Below are positions 5,565 through 22,091 of a stretch of 64,000 bases of DNA, piece after piece. The DNA comes from Chryseobacterium sp. 36-9 (lineage in GTDB: Bacteria > Bacteroidota > Bacteroidia > Flavobacteriales > Weeksellaceae). The position numbers and the translations under genes were made by a program. The stretch is from contig MKVE01000015.1 of assembly GCA_001898785.1 (NCBI GenBank), positions 222,475 through 286,474 of the forward strand, read 5' to 3'. Under the pieces are notes generated by a model, which worked only from the letters and a program-made list of their open reading frames with translations, was not told the DNA's origin and searched no databases. Position 1 is the stretch's first letter; the number at the start of each line of letters is the position of its first letter.

Positions 5565-6464
5565 TTATTTTTTCTTTTTCTCTGTGACCTGAACGACTTC
5601 TATTGGATTGTCATTCGCATTGAAAAAATCTTTTGCGATTTTTTCTTGATTTTTCATCATTTCACCTATTGTGATATCGCTGCCCGGCATTTTCATCGTC
5701 AGCATGTTTTGGGGAACCTGTGCACGCCATTCTGCCATCGGATCTTGCTTGAAAGCAGCATAGGCTTTTTCGAATTTATCCTTAGGGATAATTTTTTTCT
5801 CATTGCTTGTCATGCCGGATTTAGCCTGGATATCTTCTACGTAAGAAAACTCTTTCCAATCCTTCACTGTTTTGTTTCCGGACAACAGCCATGAATAGTT
5901 TTTACCTTCATCCTCAATTTTCACGATTAATCCGGGAAGTCCGTAGAATTTGTAAGGTCCATCCTGAAAAGGTATATCTGTAGAAAACCAGGCTGTCCAT
6001 TTTCTGCCACCGAATTCTGTTGTTGCTTTTTGAGTGTTGTATTCTCCGATCTTTTCTTTGTCAGAAAGGATTTTCCAGTCGAATTTTATATTCTCTTCGT
6101 AAGCGAAAAGGTTTTTGCTTATTCTGTCCACATATTGCTCCTTCATATCAGGATATAGTTTATATATCTTGAAAGCGAATTTTGGCATTTTTATCGTTTT
6201 CGATAAGTCTTTCCAAGTTTTGCTTTTCTGCATTTCTTCCACAGCTATTTTTATGATAGAATCCTGTGCAGTAATTGTGAAATCCTGGTAGATAGATTTG
6301 TCTTTGGTGATATCCAAAGTTGCCATTACCTTATCAATTTTTACTGAATCTTTTTTTGGTTTGAAAGAAAGTTCATAAAAGAAACGATTGGCAGTTTCTT
6401 GTGCAGAAATCATTAATCCTAATAATAGTAAAGGAAGAATGACTAATTTTTTGAGAGATTGCAT
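5565..6464 (-). CDS. GLPGLI family secreted protein
   Basis: The 299-residue protein begins with a signal peptide (about residues 1-21, ending in SAQ) and contains the family-defining motif YGLPGLIVKIEDE (174-186), preceded by WTAWFSTDIPFQDGPYKF. This family (TIGR01200) is confined to Bacteroidota, is exported, has no established biochemical role and often occurs near TonB-dependent receptors. No such receptor is adjacent here. The C-terminal part is rich in Lys and Asp and ends in a KKKK tail. It has its own terminator and lies 55 bases downstream of the DUF2520 gene, so the two may share a transcript. Confidence 0.85.
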   Translation of the reverse strand: MQSLKKLVILPLLLLGLMISAQETANRFFYELSFKPKKDSVKIDKVMATLDITKDKSIYQDFTITAQDSIIKIAVEEMQKSKTWKDLSKTIKMPKFAFKIYKLYPDMKEQYVDRISKNLFAYEENIKFDWKILSDKEKIGEYNTQKATTEFGGRKWTAWFSTDIPFQDGPYKFYGLPGLIVKIEDEGKNYSWLLSGNKTVKDWKEFSYVEDIQAKSGMTSNEKKIIPKDKFEKAYAAFKQDPMAEWRAQVPQNMLTMKMPGSDITIGEMMKNQEKIAKDFFNANDNPIEVVQVTEKKKK

Positions 6465-14960: not shown

Positions 14961-15449
14961 ATGAAAATCGAGGAATCCAATATTGTAGAAACAAACGATT
15001 ACCGCGTTATTATATATCCAGCATCAAGACCTTTTACGGCAAAAGAAAGTAAGACCATTGCGGAAAAATTATATGATTTTTTAGGCGATTGGGCAGCTCA
15101 TGGCAAAGCATTGTCTTCATCGTTCAAGATTGAAAAAAATCAATTCATTATTATTTGCGTTGATGAGGAAAAAGAAGCAGCTTCGGGTTGTAGTATTGAT
15201 GCGCTTGGAAAGGTAATGAGAGAGTTGGATGCAGAATTTGATTTGGGATTATTTGACAGGATGAAAGCTAGTTATGTTGAAAATGGTGAAGTGAAAACCC
15301 TCAAATTATCAGACTTCAAAAACAAGATAAGAAACGGCGAATTGTCAACAGATATTGAAGTTTTTGATTTTTCTAAAAATACTTATCTCGATTTTCTAAG
15401 TCATTTTTTGCAACCATTTAGCAGAAGCTGGGCATCATCAATCAAATAA
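14961..15449 (+). CDS. Conserved hypothetical protein
   Basis: The 162-residue soluble protein has no signal peptide or membrane helix. Flavobacterial relatives are often labelled ABC transporter ATPase, but no Walker A, Walker B or signature motif is present here, so that label is unsupported. The segment YRVIIYPASRPFTAKESK and a conserved aromatic region (FLGDWAAHGKAL) stand out. The function is unknown. It lies 28 bases before the glycan genes and might share their transcript. Confidence 0.7.
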   Translation: MKIEESNIVETNDYRVIIYPASRPFTAKESKTIAEKLYDFLGDWAAHGKALSSSFKIEKNQFIIICVDEEKEAASGCSIDALGKVMRELDAEFDLGLFDRMKASYVENGEVKTLKLSDFKNKIRNGELSTDIEVFDFSKNTYLDFLSHFLQPFSRSWASSIK

Positions 15450-15477
15450 TTTTATTGGGAATACATATTCAGTTTCT

Positions 15478-16194
15478 ATGAATAATGATAAAATCAAGGA
15501 TTTTTACAATGATTTCGTAAGCTATCAAACCCAATCAGGAGTCAACGAAAGAATCTATACTTTATATAAAAAAATGCAATCTCTGGGCCTTAATTCTGAT
15601 TCCAATATTCTGGAATTAGGATGTGGAATTGGAGTAATGACAAAGCTGTTGACCAATTCTGTTAAAACCGGATATATAGAGTCAGTAGATCTGAGTGATA
15701 AGTCAATAGAATTAGCAAAATCAAAAATACACAAACAAAACGTATCATTTTATACAGATGATGTAGTAAGCTATCAGCCAAAGAAAAAGAAGTTTGATTT
15801 CATAACTTTATTTGATGTCATAGAACATATTCCTCTGGAACTTCATCCTGATCTTTTCAGGAATTTGTCAGAAATAGCTAATGATAATACGAAGATCTTG
15901 ATTAATATTCCTAACCCGGATTTTATTGATTTTCACATGAATGATGAGTCTGCTTGGTTACAGATTGTGGACCAGCCGATTCCTTTGCATTTCGTTGTAG
16001 CTAACTCAGAATCTAATGGTCTTCAGGTTTCTAATTTTAATACTTATAGCATTTGGGTGGAGAATGATTATCAATTTTTTGTCATCCGGAAAAAACAACC
16101 TTATAAGAAAGTTTTACTCAGCGAAAAAAGAACCATCACTCAAAAAATATCGAATAGATTAAAAAATATCTACATTGGTTTAAGATACAGGTAG
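15478..16194 (+). CDS. Class I SAM-dependent methyltransferase
   Basis: The 238-residue protein has the Rossmann-fold SAM-binding signature ILELGCGIGVMTKLL (about residues 42-56), an acidic residue ending strand 2 (SVDLSD) and FDFITLFDVIEHIP as motif II. It fits Methyltransf_11/25-type small-molecule methyltransferases. The position, followed by a glycosyltransferase, an amidotransferase-like protein and a flippase, suggests it methylates a surface sugar or lipid-linked glycan. The acceptor cannot be told from sequence. Confidence 0.82.
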   Translation: MNNDKIKDFYNDFVSYQTQSGVNERIYTLYKKMQSLGLNSDSNILELGCGIGVMTKLLTNSVKTGYIESVDLSDKSIELAKSKIHKQNVSFYTDDVVSYQPKKKKFDFITLFDVIEHIPLELHPDLFRNLSEIANDNTKILINIPNPDFIDFHMNDESAWLQIVDQPIPLHFVVANSESNGLQVSNFNTYSIWVENDYQFFVIRKKQPYKKVLLSEKRTITQKISNRLKNIYIGLRYR

Positions 16195-16210
16195 TTTTCA
16201 AAACTTAATC

Positions 16211-17332
16211 ATGAAACTCAAAGTCCTTTTCATTTCTTCCTGGTTTCCCAATAAGCTGGAACCAACTAACGGTAACTTTGTGCAGCGACATGCAGAAGCC
16301 GTTGCAACATTGCATGACGTAGAAATTTTGCATACAATCGGAGATTTTGCCCAAAAAGAAACTTTTATTTTTGATGACAAAGTGGTAAATGGAATCAGAA
16401 CTCTCATTGTTTATTATAAAAACTCAAAAAATCCTGTTCAGAATTTTTTGCGGAGAATGAAAGCTTATAAATCAGGGTTTGCTAAGATGCAAAAGCCTGA
16501 TCTGGTACATGCTAATGTTCTTCATAATAATATGCTTTTTGCGGTTTATCTGAAGAGAAAGTATAAGATTCCTTTTGTTGTAACCGAACATTGGACAGCG
16601 CTTAGAAAAATCAATCAGGCAACAACGTCTTTAATAATCAAAAAAATAGCAACGTTTATTGGAAATCGAGCTTCAGTAATTTTACCGGTCAGCAATGATT
16701 TGAAAATCAGCCTTGAAGAATTGGGAGTCAAGTCGCCGATGAAGGTCGTGCCCAATGTTGTAGACACCAGCCTTTTTGAGCCGGATCATTCTGCACAGGA
16801 GATTTTTACATTTGTGCATATTTCCAACTTAATTCCGAGAAAAAATGCAGATAAAATACTAAAAGTTGCTATAAAATTATTGAAGGAAGGCTATCAGTTA
16901 AAACTGAAAATAGGTGGCGACGGTGATACAAAACCATTACGGGAAATTGTGAAAAAAGAAGGTTTTGAAAATCACATCGAGATTTTTGATACGTTAACGC
17001 TAACCGAAGTTTCTCAAAAACTAAAAACTTCGGATTGCTTTATTCTTTTCAGTAATGATGAGAATCAGCCTTGTGTGATTGCAGAATCTTTTGCTTCCGG
17101 AATCAAAGTGATTTCTACAAACGTTGGCGGGATTTCGGAATTTTTCCCGGAGAATTTCGGAATACTTGTCGATAGGCCAGACGAAATTCTTCTGGAAAAG
17201 GCAATGAAACAATTAATCGAAAACCAGTCTCCACGAGATATTGAAAAAATATCAAGTTATGCAAAACAGACTTTTTCCAAGGAAAGTATTGCAACACAGT
17301 TCACGGAGATTTATAAAAATGTGATGCGTTAA
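16211..17332 (+). CDS. Glycosyltransferase family 4 (GT-B fold)
   Basis: The 373-residue protein has a GT4 layout: an N-terminal acceptor domain starting KVLFISSWFPNKLEPTNGNF, and a C-terminal nucleotide-sugar domain with PNVVDTSLFEPD, KLKIGGDGD and the E-x7-E region ENQPCVIAESFASG (about residue 284 onwards). It should transfer a sugar from a nucleotide donor to a lipid-linked glycan on the cytosolic face. Its TAA stop shares its last A with the ATG of the next gene, so translation is coupled. Confidence 0.87.
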   Translation: MKLKVLFISSWFPNKLEPTNGNFVQRHAEAVATLHDVEILHTIGDFAQKETFIFDDKVVNGIRTLIVYYKNSKNPVQNFLRRMKAYKSGFAKMQKPDLVHANVLHNNMLFAVYLKRKYKIPFVVTEHWTALRKINQATTSLIIKKIATFIGNRASVILPVSNDLKISLEELGVKSPMKVVPNVVDTSLFEPDHSAQEIFTFVHISNLIPRKNADKILKVAIKLLKEGYQLKLKIGGDGDTKPLREIVKKEGFENHIEIFDTLTLTEVSQKLKTSDCFILFSNDENQPCVIAESFASGIKVISTNVGGISEFFPENFGILVDRPDEILLEKAMKQLIENQSPRDIEKISSYAKQTFSKESIATQFTEIYKNVMR

Positions 17333-18978
17333 TGTCGGGATTCAGGATTCATATTGTTGATAATCATGTCAAGACGTCGTCATTCTTTGTTAAGGATTAT
17401 GACTCTTTTGTGATTAATGATGACCAGGTTGAAATTGCTGTTGAAGGTGTCATTCTCAATAAAAAAAAACTTTTACAAAATTCCGGATTCTTGGATTTCA
17501 CAGATTTTTTTCTGGATCTTTATCAAAAAGTGAATGTGAATTCTATTAAAGAACTGGACGGAGAATTCCGTGGCTATATTTGGGATAAATTAGGACATAA
17601 ACTTTTTGTTTTTACTAATCCGACTTCTACGCAAAGTGTTTTCTACACAAAGCATGATCAGCAGATATTTATAGATTCCTCTCTTGTTCGGCTAACCAAA
17701 ACTCTTAAGGAAAATAAAATCTCTGTTACGCCGGATATTCAGAATATTTACAAGCTGTTGACTTTCGGAAATATGCTGGAAAACGATACACCGGTAGAAA
17801 ATATTTTCAAAATACTGGACGGCCATTTTATAGAGGTTGACCTGAATAATCTTACAATCGTTGAAAAAAAATATTTTGATCTGGAAGGAATCGATTATTA
17901 TAAAAGCTCCAGAGAAAATGCAATTCACGATCTGGATTCAATATTTTCAGACAATATTCTTATGGAATATGAGAAGGACAACGAATTGAATTCAAAGCAT
18001 TTTGCCTTACTAAGTGGAGGATTAGATAGTAGAATCGCTTTACTGTATGCGAATCAGCTTGGAGAAAAGCCGGATGAAGCGTTTTGTTTTTCACAATCTG
18101 GATATCTTGACGAAACGATCTCAAGACAAATAGCAAAAGATAATGACATTCCTTATACTTTTCAGTCTTTGGACGGAGGAAGTTATCTGAACTATATTGA
18201 TCAGCTTACGGAATTATCACAAGGTTGCGGACTTTTTACTGGTGGCATCCATATCCAATATGCTTTTGAAAATCTAGAAAACAAAGATTTTAAAATTATT
18301 CATAGCGGATCCATTGGAGACGGTATTTTAGGCGGTTTTAATACAGTTCCTTATAAACAAAAGCCGGGAGAATTTAAGATTGTTATTAATGGAAAATTTC
18401 TTCCAAAAGTTAAATCAGATTTCGATAAGATTCTAAATCAATATGAGTCCGAAGAACTTTTCTATCTCAGAAATGTTGCTTATAACAGGACTATTCTTGG
18501 ATCTAGAGTGATACAGCAATTCGGTTATCAGACATCACCGTTTATGTCCAAAAAAATATTGGAATTTGCGATCAGTCTTCCCGAAAAGTGGAAAATCAAT
18601 CAAAAACTCTATCTGGATTGGTTGAATCAATGCATGCCAAATGCTGCTGATTATATCTGGGAAAAAACGGGTATGAAACCTAACGCCCAATGGAAAAGTA
18701 CGATCGGTCCGAAAGTGAAAAAAAGAATTTCCAAAATATGGAATGCCAAAATCACTAAGAAACCTAATAAAACAAGTATGTATCCTTATGAGTTTTATTA
18801 TAATAACTCCCGGGATATCCAGAATTATTATCAGAATTATTATTCGGACAACATCTGGCGACTGGAAAATTATCCTGAACTAAAAAATGATGTCCGGCAA
18901 TTATTTGAGCAAAAAGATTTTTTTCAGAAAAGCCAGGGAATCAATATTTTGGCTATTTTTAAATTATTTTTCAATTAG
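17332..18978 (+). CDS. Asparagine-synthetase-like protein lacking the glutaminase Cys
   Basis: The 548-residue protein resembles AsnB: an N-terminal Ntn-hydrolase-like domain (about 1-180, with LDGEFRGYIWD and a FTNPTSTQSVFYT segment) and a C-terminal synthetase domain with the PP-loop LSGGLDSR (Ser228 to Ser233). Residue 2 is Ser, not the catalytic Cys2 needed for glutamine hydrolysis, so it may use free ammonia or another amine, as beta-lactam synthetase relatives do, or have only a structural N-domain. In O-antigen loci AsnB homologues make uronamides; a similar amide modification of a surface sugar is the most economical guess here. It overlaps both neighbours by one base. Confidence 0.75.
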   Translation: MSGFRIHIVDNHVKTSSFFVKDYDSFVINDDQVEIAVEGVILNKKKLLQNSGFLDFTDFFLDLYQKVNVNSIKELDGEFRGYIWDKLGHKLFVFTNPTSTQSVFYTKHDQQIFIDSSLVRLTKTLKENKISVTPDIQNIYKLLTFGNMLENDTPVENIFKILDGHFIEVDLNNLTIVEKKYFDLEGIDYYKSSRENAIHDLDSIFSDNILMEYEKDNELNSKHFALLSGGLDSRIALLYANQLGEKPDEAFCFSQSGYLDETISRQIAKDNDIPYTFQSLDGGSYLNYIDQLTELSQGCGLFTGGIHIQYAFENLENKDFKIIHSGSIGDGILGGFNTVPYKQKPGEFKIVINGKFLPKVKSDFDKILNQYESEELFYLRNVAYNRTILGSRVIQQFGYQTSPFMSKKILEFAISLPEKWKINQKLYLDWLNQCMPNAADYIWEKTGMKPNAQWKSTIGPKVKKRISKIWNAKITKKPNKTSMYPYEFYYNNSRDIQNYYQNYYSDNIWRLENYPELKNDVRQLFEQKDFFQKSQGINILAIFKLFFN

Positions 18979-20222
18979 TGGGAAACTTATCCGACTTTCT
19001 TAGAAATTTTTTGAAAAACAAAGGTCATTTCGTCTTTGGATCATTGCTTATTGCTAAAATTTGTGGATTTATAGGTTCTGTTGTAATCATAAGATTATTG
19101 CCTGAAAAAGATTTTGGTTTGATAAGTATTGTCGCTTCGTTATTTGCTGTTTTTTTTGCCTTCAGCGGATTTGGCAGCCAGCAGATTCTTCTCAGATACG
19201 GATCTATTGTAAAAACAGAAGAAGAAAAGAACAAACTGTCATCATATCTTCTGAAACAAGGCTTTTTCTATCAGATTTTGTTGAGTGTTATTTTCCTTGT
19301 CGCATCACTTTTTTATCTGGACAAATTTGAAAAAATCATTTGTCTTTTTATGGCGTTTGCAATCAGGTTAATCGGCTATTTTTTTTACAATCATATTCAG
19401 TCACAATTAAGAATTAGTGGAAAAAACAAAGAATTTGCAAGATTGAATAATATCGTTAATATCTCAGGTTTGCTCCTGATTATTATTCTTACTTATTTTT
19501 TCGGAATCATGGGATATTTGATAGCGCTGGTTCTGGCACCGTTCACTGCATTGTTTTGGTTTAAAGATATTAATCTGTCATTAGATACTGATATCGGTTT
19601 CCCCAGAAAAGAACTATGGAAATATGGTCTTTTTACAGCGGGAACAGCCGTTTTGAGTGATGCTTTATTTTCTTTGGATATTATATTAATGGGATTTTTG
19701 ATGACCGAATCATCTGTTGCAGATTACAAAGCGGCAATTCTGATCCCTTCCAATCTTACATTCATTGCATTGACTTTTATGCAGAGCGATTTTCCTGAAC
19801 TAGCCAAAAATCACAACGATAAAAAATTTCTGAGCTACTATATATCCAATTATTATAAAATATTCATTCCGCTATGTGTAGCGATTTTTGGAGTCCTATA
19901 TTTTTTGAAAGATGATATTGTAGTTTTATTTTTTGGCGAAAAATATAAAGGAATTGAACCGGCATTCATTATCTTAACATCAGCATTTTTGCTCAATATG
20001 TTGCTGAGAAATCTCTACGGAAATCTTCTTTCTGCGGTTGGAAAAATGGAATATAACACGATTATCTCTGCTTTAGCATTAGTTATTTTATTAGGATTAT
20101 CATTGGTTTTAGTTCCAAAATACGGAGTGGAAGGAATGGCAATCGCACAATCGGTAACATTATTGACAACAGGATTATTATTAATGTCCGGATTCTTTTC
20201 TTACATCCGGAAATTGTCATGA
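18978..20222 (+). CDS. Oligosaccharide flippase (Wzx-like)
   Basis: The 414-residue protein has about 12 membrane helices and the start typical of polysaccharide flippases (SLLIAKICGFIGSVVIIRLLPEKDFG split over residues 21-46). It should move a lipid-linked glycan across the inner membrane. The start is a GTG that shares one base with the preceding TAG stop (TAGTG), so it is translated by coupling. It closes the four-gene glycan unit. No polymerase or ligase is present nearby, so the product may be a single repeat unit or be completed elsewhere. Confidence 0.85.
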   Translation: MGNLSDFLRNFLKNKGHFVFGSLLIAKICGFIGSVVIIRLLPEKDFGLISIVASLFAVFFAFSGFGSQQILLRYGSIVKTEEEKNKLSSYLLKQGFFYQILLSVIFLVASLFYLDKFEKIICLFMAFAIRLIGYFFYNHIQSQLRISGKNKEFARLNNIVNISGLLLIIILTYFFGIMGYLIALVLAPFTALFWFKDINLSLDTDIGFPRKELWKYGLFTAGTAVLSDALFSLDIILMGFLMTESSVADYKAAILIPSNLTFIALTFMQSDFPELAKNHNDKKFLSYYISNYYKIFIPLCVAIFGVLYFLKDDIVVLFFGEKYKGIEPAFIILTSAFLLNMLLRNLYGNLLSAVGKMEYNTIISALALVILLGLSLVLVPKYGVEGMAIAQSVTLLTTGLLLMSGFFSYIRKLS

Positions 20223-20230
20223 AAGTATTT

Positions 20231-20238
20231 TATCTTTG
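20231..20238 (+). promoter_or_regulatory. -7 promoter box close to a start codon
   Basis: TATCTTTG matches TAnnTTTG exactly and ends only 5 bases before the ATG at 20244. If it is used, transcription would begin at or next to the start codon, giving a leaderless message. No TTTG is seen at the -33 distance, so a chance match is possible. Confidence 0.35.
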
Positions 20239-20243
20239 CAGGG

Positions 20244-20750
20244 ATGAAACTAAAAATATCCATAATTTTATCGGCAATAGTTCTCTTATTCTCTTGTAGA
20301 GGAGACGGTGATGATGTCCAGACAATTGATCAGGTTCTGAGACTTTATGTGAAAAATTCTACAGGTCAGGATCTTTTAAATTCTAAAATACCTGGTTCAT
20401 ATTCTTCCGTTACGTTATTGGATCAATTGGATGAAATAACTGCCAATAAGCCTATCTCCGGCTATTCTCTACTCAAAGATGCAGATACTGTTGTTTATAT
20501 GGATTATGCTGCGGGCGCTATCAGGCTGTTAAAAGACTCTATCAGTCCGGAACTTAAAACTTACAAATCCCGGTTTATAATCAGATATTCAAAAACGGCT
20601 AATTCTCAAACCGTAAATGATGACGACATCATTGAGATTGAATACAAATGGACACCTTCTGTGTTCGAATTATCCAAACTTTGGTACGATAACGAACTCA
20701 AATTCACAAAAGTTCAGGGACAGCCAAACATTGTCAGAATCGTGAAATAA
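20244..20750 (+). CDS. Putative lipoprotein, unknown function
   Basis: The 168-residue protein begins with a lipoprotein signal (residues 1-18, lipobox LLFSC with Cys18) followed by the acidic stretch RGDGDD; in flavobacteria a charged stretch after the Cys is compatible with surface export of lipoproteins. The remainder is predicted beta-rich and I do not recognise a family. It starts 21 bases after the flippase stop codon, so it may belong to the glycan unit or be independent. Confidence 0.7.
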   Translation: MKLKISIILSAIVLLFSCRGDGDDVQTIDQVLRLYVKNSTGQDLLNSKIPGSYSSVTLLDQLDEITANKPISGYSLLKDADTVVYMDYAAGAIRLLKDSISPELKTYKSRFIIRYSKTANSQTVNDDDIIEIEYKWTPSVFELSKLWYDNELKFTKVQGQPNIVRIVK

Positions 20751-20819: not shown

Positions 20820-22091
20820 ATGTTACAGGTTAATTTTTTGCGCGAGAACAAAGAGCGCGTTTTGGAAGGCTTGAAGAAAAGAAACTTCAAGGAATTAGAT
20901 TTGGTCGATGCGGCAATCAATGCTGACGACGAAAGAAAAAAACTGCAATTTGAGCTGGACTCACAACTTTCCGAGATGAACAAAATTTCGAAAGAAATCG
21001 GAATTCTGATGAAAGACGGTAAAAAAGAGGAAGCTGAAGCTGCAAAATCCAAAACTTCGCAATACAAAGAATCGAGCAAAGAATTGGAATCCCAACTGAA
21101 AGAAGTTGAGAAAAACCTTATTAACATCCTCTACCAGATTCCAAATATTCCTTACGAGAAAGTAGTTGCCGGCGTTTCTGCCGATGATAATGAAATCGTT
21201 TATGAATCTACAACAGTAGAAGGTCTTGGCGAAGGCGCCATTCCACACTGGGAATTGGCTAAAAAATATAATTTAATCGATTTTGAATTGGGCGTGAAAA
21301 TTGCCGGCGCAGGTTTTCCTGTTTATCTGGGAAAAGGCGCACGTTTGCAGAGAGCTTTGGTTCAATATTTCCTGGACAAAAATACAGATGCCGGTTATCT
21401 GGAAGTGAATCCGCCACACGTGGTGAACGAAGCTTCCGGTTACGGAACGGGACAATTGCCTGATAAGGAAGGACAAATGTATTATGTTGGCGCAGATGAT
21501 TTATACCTGATCCCAACAGCTGAGGTTCCTGTTACCAATATCTACCGTGATGTCTTGCTGGACGAAAAAGATTTGCCGATCAAGAATACTGCTTTTTCCC
21601 AGTGTTACAGAAGAGAAGCGGGAAGCTATGGTGCACACGTGAGAGGCTTGAACAGACTTCACCAATTCGAAAAAGTGGAAATTGTGAGAATCGAGAAGCC
21701 GGAAAATTCTTATGCTGTTTTGGAAGAAATGGTAGAACACATCAAATCCATTCTGGAAGATCTGGAATTGCCGTACAGAATCCTGAGACTTTGCGGTGGC
21801 GACACAGGTTTTGCTTCAGCAATGACTTACGACTTCGAAGTCTGGAGTGCGGCGCAGGAAAAATGGCTGGAAGTAAGTTCTGTTTCCAATTTTGAAACGT
21901 TCCAGGCTAACCGTCTGAAATGCCGTTATAAAGGTAATGAAGGTAAATCCCAATTGGTTCACACCCTTAACGGTTCTGCAATGGCTTTGCCAAGAATCAT
22001 GGCAGCTTTGCTGGAAAACAACCAAACGCCGGAAGGTATCAAATTACCAAAGAAAATCGCAGAGTATGCGAGATTTGAATTGATTAATTAA
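20820..22091 (+). CDS. serS: Seryl-tRNA synthetase
   Basis: This class II aminoacyl-tRNA synthetase charges tRNA-Ser (and tRNA-Sec where present). The 423 residues show the N-terminal long helical arm (about 1-110, highly charged coiled coil), motif 2 with FSQCYRREAGSYGAH and LNRLHQFEKVEI, and motif 3 with TLNGSAMALPRIMAALLEN. Length and motif order are normal. A strong terminator follows. Confidence 0.97.
   Translation: MLQVNFLRENKERVLEGLKKRNFKELDLVDAAINADDERKKLQFELDSQLSEMNKISKEIGILMKDGKKEEAEAAKSKTSQYKESSKELESQLKEVEKNLINILYQIPNIPYEKVVAGVSADDNEIVYESTTVEGLGEGAIPHWELAKKYNLIDFELGVKIAGAGFPVYLGKGARLQRALVQYFLDKNTDAGYLEVNPPHVVNEASGYGTGQLPDKEGQMYYVGADDLYLIPTAEVPVTNIYRDVLLDEKDLPIKNTAFSQCYRREAGSYGAHVRGLNRLHQFEKVEIVRIEKPENSYAVLEEMVEHIKSILEDLELPYRILRLCGGDTGFASAMTYDFEVWSAAQEKWLEVSSVSNFETFQANRLKCRYKGNEGKSQLVHTLNGSAMALPRIMAALLENNQTPEGIKLPKKIAEYARFELIN

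Follow-up and report, generated by a model that had tools for sequence, protein, structure and literature searches.

A conserved glycosyltransferase–AsnB-like–flippase unit in Weeksellaceae with an AsnB-like protein lacking the glutaminase site

What could an asparagine synthetase-like protein do beside a glycan flippase if it cannot use glutamine in the normal way? The question is raised by a gene cluster at positions 15478-20222 of a 64,000-nucleotide stretch of DNA from Chryseobacterium sp. 36-9 (GenBank assembly GCA_001898785.1, contig MKVE01000015.1), hereafter the window, in which genes for a methyltransferase, a GT4 glycosyltransferase, an AsnB-superfamily (AsnB-like) protein and a Wzx/MOP-type flippase are packed together. 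An earlier note on the window had described this gene set, the overlaps of the AsnB-like gene with both of its neighbors and the loss of the catalytic Cys2, and these observations are certain: all four roles are supported by Pfam matches, and one-base overlaps are present at both ends (TAATG at 17332, TAGTG at 18978). In surface-glycan loci, genes of the AsnB family are commonly taken to encode glutamine-dependent amidotransferases, which this lineage cannot be by its sequence. We found that the conserved unit consists of three genes, GT4, AsnB-like and flippase, and we consider it fairly probable that the AsnB-like protein is an ATP-dependent, glutamine-independent enzyme that forms an amide, ahead of flipping, on a lipid-linked surface glycan.

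The earlier note had allowed that the start of the AsnB-like gene might be misassigned and a Cys might follow the true initiator Met, which proved not to be the case. Five in-frame codons (AAA-TGT-GAT-GCG-TTA) lie between the preceding stop codon (TAA) and the start, and none of them is a start codon. With starts taken as the first ATG, GTG or TTG after the stop, the 56 relatives begin at, or a few residues from, a shared M-x-G-F, and no Cys occurs within the first 12 residues as called in any of the 57 sequences. A Cys hidden behind a wrong start was therefore rejected.

The loss extends to the whole glutaminase site. The glutaminase of AsnH from L. casei is described as needing Cys2, Arg48, Asn73, Glu75 and Asp97, and the C2S substitution alone abolished its glutamate production (PMC3885529). 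We mapped the corresponding columns in 57 sequences, the window protein and those of 56 other loci, by sequence alignment, not by structure, with a Cys2-bearing AsnB that occupies the same chromosomal slot in relatives. Residue 2 of the window protein is Ser, and the residue preceding an invariant Gly is Lys in 44 sequences, Gln in seven, Ser in two and Pro, Thr, Leu or Arg in one each, so that the Cys2 of AsnB is missing throughout. The Asn of the pocket is replaced by Glu in 54 sequences (Glu38 in the window protein) and by Asp in three, the Glu of the NGE column has become Val, Ile or Leu in all 57, and the Arg loop is gapped in all 57. The column of Asp97 in AsnH holds Phe in 47 sequences, another residue in six and a gap in four, and never Asp. 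AsnB, LtsA and AsnH share with the window protein the two-domain plan and the PP-loop SGGxDS, but all five of these glutaminase residues are changed or missing in the latter, which supports a protein that would not use glutamine in the normal way. The proposal in the earlier note, which relied on Ser in place of Cys2 next to a retained SGGLDS motif, is thus strengthened. The match of the protein to GATase_7 is marginal (24.9 bits, just below the 25-bit cut-off).

The ATP motif has remained intact. SGGLDSR (residues 228-234) is invariant in all 57 sequences, as are H324, G326, G329, E374, E375, K421, Y427, W430, E444 and P450. The synthetase signature has drifted in part, as the SGNGADE of the slot AsnB reads SGQIGDG-like in the AsnB-like protein; the Asp of this motif (D330) is kept in 56 of the 57, and the next Glu is replaced by Gly in 56. 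Nine distant homologues outside the family tell a similar story. Six of them start with M-[A/S/P]-G-[I/L/F], which corresponds to the MCGI start with the Cys replaced, including one (L175) whose start was probably called too early and whose internal Met gives MAGIYG; the remaining three align poorly at the start. All nine retain SGG and the Asp, and seven also the following Ser, which is Ala in the other two.

With a match at E 1e-20 or better counted as a carrier, 58 of 296 genomes of the family, in 11 of its 33 genera, carry the AsnB-like gene, and orthologues at 78% are found in Epilithonimonas lactis and E. xixisoli, of the window genome's genus. Profile searches outside the family found two members in 395 genomes of the order and seven in 395 of the phylum, the two draws overlapping in part. 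Among relatives, seven closely related pairs gave ratios of nonsynonymous to synonymous substitution rates (dN/dS) of 0.08-0.17, indicating purifying selection; of four pairs that included the window's own sequence, three showed saturation of synonymous sites. The protein is thus a maintained one whose ATP motif is retained and whose glutamine site is lost, and a single drifted copy was rejected given the spread of the gene in the family and the dN/dS values. The lineage thus recurs over several families of one phylum and is kept by selection. An origin as a plasmid or phage gene was also rejected: the six plasmid records that matched were all below 60% identity, with less than 80% of the query covered in each, and there was no match among phage records.

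The gene neighborhood was examined in 56 of the 57 other carriers in the family, leaving out one (G091) on a contig of 11,841 bases. GT4 adjoins the AsnB-like gene in 55 of these loci, and the flippase adjoins it in 53 and lies at most two open reading frames (ORFs) away in the other three, both always on the same strand. Departures from the common layout are few: an FkbM methyltransferase stands between GT4 and the AsnB-like gene in L048, the flippase frame of L054 is split and its GT4 short, perhaps through a sequencing fault, and the order is flippase-GT4-enzyme in L093 and L094. Each of the nine distant homologues has a Pfam flippase as its immediate neighbor, which brings the loci with a flippase within two ORFs to all 65 others examined. 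Since the window genome has only four such flippase genes in total, this linkage is not due to chance. A weakly GT4-like gene lies within two genes in five distant loci and five genes away in L162, where a GT56-like gene is next door, and another distant locus (L171) has a DegT aminotransferase, a PIG-L deacetylase, a hexapeptide protein and WbqC as neighbors. The possibility, raised in the earlier note, that the gene might be unlinked to glycan genes in relatives was thus not borne out.

The methyltransferase behaves differently. A similar gene (67%) was found beside only two of the 56 other loci (L057 and L060), and the methyltransferase was rejected as a constant member. Relatives of two methyltransferases of other families lie within four ORFs in 12 more loci, so that methyltransferases of three Pfam families (23, 21/FkbM and 24) are found within this distance of the AsnB-like gene in 14 of the 56 (L048, L051, L053, L057, L058, L059, L060, L064, L067, L068, L077, L079, L087 and L092), which suggests repeated recruitment of methylation. 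Of the four-gene unit read from the window, GT4, AsnB-like and flippase co-occur in relatives and the methyltransferase is an accessory; the earlier interpretation stands as to glutamine use, start and linkage, and fails as to the methyltransferase.

The gene for seryl-tRNA synthetase (serS) lies within 46 of the 56 stretches; among the ten without it, one (L040) stops at a contig edge, and in six (L087-L092) the trio is at a distance from serS and close to a HAD-like gene, recognized by eye. All six have, upstream of GT4, an additional gene of flippase type that is alike among them (44-89% to that of L089, where Pfam confirmed it). We compared 23 genomes of the genus, the window included, and all of them have a conserved 162-aa protein upstream and serS downstream of one slot, which spans 15450-20243 in the window, between the 162-aa protein and a small protein on the serS side, and is seen also in L136-L148. 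Six contents fill this slot, built from two GT-flippase lineages (GT, glycosyltransferase). The lineage of the window is accompanied by the AsnB-like enzyme in 10 genomes and lacks it in seven; the other is accompanied by a Cys2-bearing AsnB (632-633 aa) in three, by a different Cys2-less AsnB-like protein of 533 aa in one and by neither in one; the slot is empty in the remaining genome. Within the five genomes of the other lineage the GTs are 59-80% alike and the flippases 56-94%, and the members scanned matched Pfam GT and Polysacc_synt models except for the flippase of L143, which fell below the cut-off. The second Cys2-less protein (L143:2887-4488) is dissimilar to that of the window and scores 79.7 bits with TIGR01536. 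The presence of a Cys2-bearing AsnB and of another Cys2-less protein in the slot indicates that AsnB-family chemistry recurs there.

When mapped onto a tree built from four flanking genes, the six slot types require nine changes, where five is the minimum possible and eight of 200 shuffled arrangements gave a value as low; the sequence from L040 filled 13% of the columns. Well-supported branches force at least four changes for the cassette type of the window. The nine changes imply that cassettes were exchanged, with some clustering by descent. This pattern fits a variable surface-glycan determinant and makes the slot a candidate surface-variation locus, of which a full-text literature search, judged by titles and the beginnings of abstracts, gave no description. 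The trio therefore offers a compact system, with three genes, natural enzyme-less variants and natural Cys2-bearing AsnB replacements at one chromosomal site in one genus.

Two further proteins were observed in or next to the slot. In two relatives from the genus, the opposite strand of the slot (L044:7109-8524 and L046:6732-8147) encodes a protein of 471 aa whose N terminus is hydrophobic, as judged by eye; the L044 copy has no Pfam or NCBIfam match, and a transferase active outside the membrane is one possibility. In five genomes of the genus whose cassettes are of other types (L139:10217-11359, L142:7794-8936, L144, L145:12160-13296 and L148), the gene for a 377-380-aa protein lies just ahead of that for the 162-aa protein, and its L139 copy has no Pfam match.

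We compared the AsnB-like protein with known members of the superfamily. In profile-profile comparison it matched the Cys2-bearing AsnB from the same slot with a probability of 98.4 (E 9.8e-15), and its best match among solved structures was the hydroxyamidotransferase TsnB9 (7ylz; E 7.1e-8, positions 59-255 only), which belongs to a natural-product context, unlike the window enzyme. No NCBIfam model reached its cut-off: TIGR01536 for asparagine synthetase AsnB gave 61.2 bits against 267.1, TIGR03108, of the model group named for WbpS, 47.7 against 816.9, and the lasso-peptide cyclase model NF033535 43.2 against 525. The Cys2-bearing slot AsnB also misses TIGR03108 (360.5 against 816.9 bits). 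Beta-lactam synthetase, carbapenam synthetase and lasso-peptide cyclase are not known to have a working glutaminase; they are found in peptide or beta-lactam clusters, whereas the window enzyme stands in a flippase context. These three belong to the asparagine synthetase (AS) family as enzymes that close amide bonds, and the superfamily is described as forming acyl-AMP and then amides, its AS-like relatives making amides, lactams, isopeptides and nitriles (PMC13060819, preprint).

The closest functional parallel is WbpS/WbqG (PGN_1234), which like the window protein belongs to the AsnB superfamily, is encoded beside a Wzx flippase and, as WbpS, acts on a surface-glycan sugar. WbpS of P. gingivalis is reported as encoded directly downstream of wbpE and wzx and as needed for a uronamide sugar (PMC7468200). 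However, WbpS/WbqG are described as glutamine amidotransferases, while the window protein has neither Cys2 nor the glutamine pocket. The protein is a new form within the AsnB superfamily, with a probable WbpS-like role, that fails the tests of a glutamine-dependent AsnB, and a literature search on AsnB-like enzymes without Cys2 in polysaccharide loci gave nothing specific.

From these observations we infer adenylation, an amide product, a lipid-linked substrate and a surface location. GT4 would add a sugar to a lipid-linked glycan at the cytoplasmic face of the membrane. The AsnB-like enzyme would then use its C-terminal PP-loop domain to activate a carboxylate, either of the glycan or of a small donor acid, to the acyl-AMP, which it would join to ammonia or an amine without glutamine, its N-terminal domain surviving as a scaffold. 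The partner flippase would move the product to the periplasm, and different GT-flippase sets, some including AsnB-family enzymes and others not, would replace one another at the slot beside serS. If this is true, these bacteria would carry amide-bearing surface sugars and have a glutamine-free route to them.

Several observations weigh against this proposal of a glutamine-independent amide-forming enzyme. Carriers are a minority of genomes in the family as in the order and phylum draws outside it, and the seven genus genomes with GT4 and flippase alone imply that the enzyme step is optional. The synthetase domain has diverged (Asn_synthase, PF00733, at 26.7 bits, above the 21-bit cut-off; GADE changed to GDG), and the lysines essential in AsnH could not be securely mapped, K449 being Lys in 52, Arg in four and Asn in one of the 57 sequences. 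Structure models built from nine close sequences were poor, with a mean predicted local distance difference test (pLDDT) score of 42.5 for the full length and 48.8 for the N domain, and a fold search with the poor N-domain model returned no match at E 0.001 or better; 7ylz at the top (E 0.075) and AsnB 1ct9 (E 0.23), with proteasome and antibody chains between and below them, are a weak hint. Uronic-acid dehydrogenases lie outside the cassette, with two matches above cut-off, both on contig C22.

The readings diverge on the nucleophile, and we weighed ammonia and an amine about equally. The narrowest form of our proposal is an ammonia-dependent uronamide synthase analogous to WbpS, which would convert a uronic acid of the glycan to its amide with free ammonia and which we regard as possible rather than probable. 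The Cys2-bearing AsnB in the same slot in three of 23 genomes and the two nucleoside diphosphate (NDP)-sugar dehydrogenases in the genome speak for it, as do the role of WbpS beside wzx in P. gingivalis (PMC7468200) and the AS-like enzyme PesC, described as taking ammonia instead of glutamine (PMC13060819, preprint). However, losing the glutaminase would be odd if ammonia were still the nucleophile, and the Cys2-bearing cassette has a different GT and flippase, so that the substrates need not match. Loss of the glutamine pocket in every aligned member is expected for a nucleophile other than ammonia, and an amide ligase that couples an amino acid, a hydroxy acid or an amino sugar to the glycan can be entertained, if with some doubt. 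The distant homologue L171 does lie among amino-sugar-type genes, but this context was seen in one of nine distant loci, whose neighbors were scanned in part, and the cassette includes no acid-supplying gene.

The remaining readings appear less likely. Dismantling of the glutaminase site and drift of part of the synthetase signature would suit a pseudoenzyme serving as a structural partner of the flippase or the GT, yet the invariance of SGGLDSR and the retention of D330 in all but one of the 57 sequences make such a loss of catalysis unlikely. The intramolecular lactam closure on a sugar-bound amino acid that the earlier note had offered has lost ground and is now highly improbable in our view. 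Beta-lactam and carbapenam synthetases do work without a glutaminase, but the column that by sequence alignment, not by structure, would correspond to the catalytic Tyr of the Tyr-Glu dyad of beta-lactam synthetase is Gln in 42 sequences, Ser in 10, Ala in three and His in two, never Tyr, and the cassette has no gene for amino-acid supply. Very unlikely, too, is that glutamine is still used through a separate glutaminase, of which the cassette has none, or that an acetamidino group is formed. The latter has been proposed for asnB of T. forsythia, inside an O-glycan cluster (PMC6120980), but no nonulosonate genes were recognized among the scanned window proteins, the rest of the genome not having been searched for them.

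A bolder extension, to which we give only tentative credence, is that a phylum-wide AsnB-like clade gave up glutamine, acquired dedicated Wzx partners and joins a non-ammonia amine to lipid-linked glycan before export, with glycan identity determined by which GT, amide ligase and flippase make up the exchangeable trio. A link of the cassette to the protein O-glycans of Bacteroidota is possible: in a review, the core flippase of these glycans is given as unfound and methyl groups as common (PMC12871550). The same source describes an LFG O-glycosylation locus in Bacteroidota with a metG-wzx start and a conserved GT pair at its end, a layout that its authors do not find kept across the whole phylum. 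The window slot differs from it, lying beside serS with one GT and no metG-wzx layout. This absence and the one genus genome with no cassette argue against a universal core flippase role.

Elsewhere in the genome of the window, a separate Asn_synthase frame of 557 codons on contig C35 means that the AsnB-like gene is not the only candidate asparagine synthetase, and a role as the sole one is thus unlikely. Other glycan regions, with roles assigned largely by eye, lie on C22 (two sugar dehydrogenases and an apparent ABC exporter) and C32 (a flippase), so the glycan that the cassette decorates may be one whose synthesis starts at another locus.

Table 1. The cassette and its flanking genes in window coordinates
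Feature	Position	Strand	Length	Remarks
Conserved protein, upstream edge of swap slot	14961..15449	+	162 aa	In 23/23 genus genomes including the window; 91-97% identity in the other 22
Class I S-adenosylmethionine (SAM) methyltransferase (Methyltransf_23), accessory member	15478..16194	+	238 aa	Pfam 2.8e-17
GT4 glycosyltransferase	16211..17332	+	373 aa	Pfam Glycos_transf_1 4.4e-23, Glyco_transf_4 6.5e-17
AsnB-superfamily (AsnB-like) protein	17332..18978	+	548 aa	Intact PP-loop SGGLDSR, glutaminase domain dismantled
Wzx/MOP-type lipid-linked-glycan flippase	18978..20222	+	414 aa	GTG start; Pfam Polysacc_synt 6.8e-13, Polysacc_synt_3 2.9e-12
Small protein, downstream slot edge between flippase and serS	20244..20750	+		Lipoprotein-like N terminus (by eye); no Pfam match
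serS, seryl-tRNA synthetase, downstream anchor	20820..22091	+		Pfam Seryl_tRNA_N 7.6e-23, tRNA-synt_2b 6.8e-39; 23/23 genus genomes

The methyltransferase matches Methyltransf_23, Methyltransf_25 and Methyltransf_11, and the flippase exceeds both of its Pfam cut-offs (Polysacc_synt 49.1 against 28.2 bits, Polysacc_synt_3 46.9 against 23 bits). We also scanned 23 further window proteins, serS included, located between 172 and 36617 and representing part of the ORFs there, with Pfam. No polymerase, ligase or further GT was found among them, in keeping with the remark in the earlier note that no polymerase or ligase is nearby. A Wzy_C search of the genome gave no match, which carries little weight since this model is expected to miss many polymerases. 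Two of the scanned proteins (8098 and 8695) had no Pfam match. The others include an MFS transporter, a phosphoglucomutase/phosphomannomutase, FeoB, DUF2520, sigma-70, SurA-like and MlaD proteins, Fe-S and CCG proteins, a PIF1-like helicase, RuvC, an M16 peptidase, a beta-lactamase-fold protein, an AraC-type regulator, ferrochelatase, NifU, a hexapeptide protein, BrkB and DUF4407, as well as a Porph_ging-domain protein encoded at 5565-6464, near FeoB.

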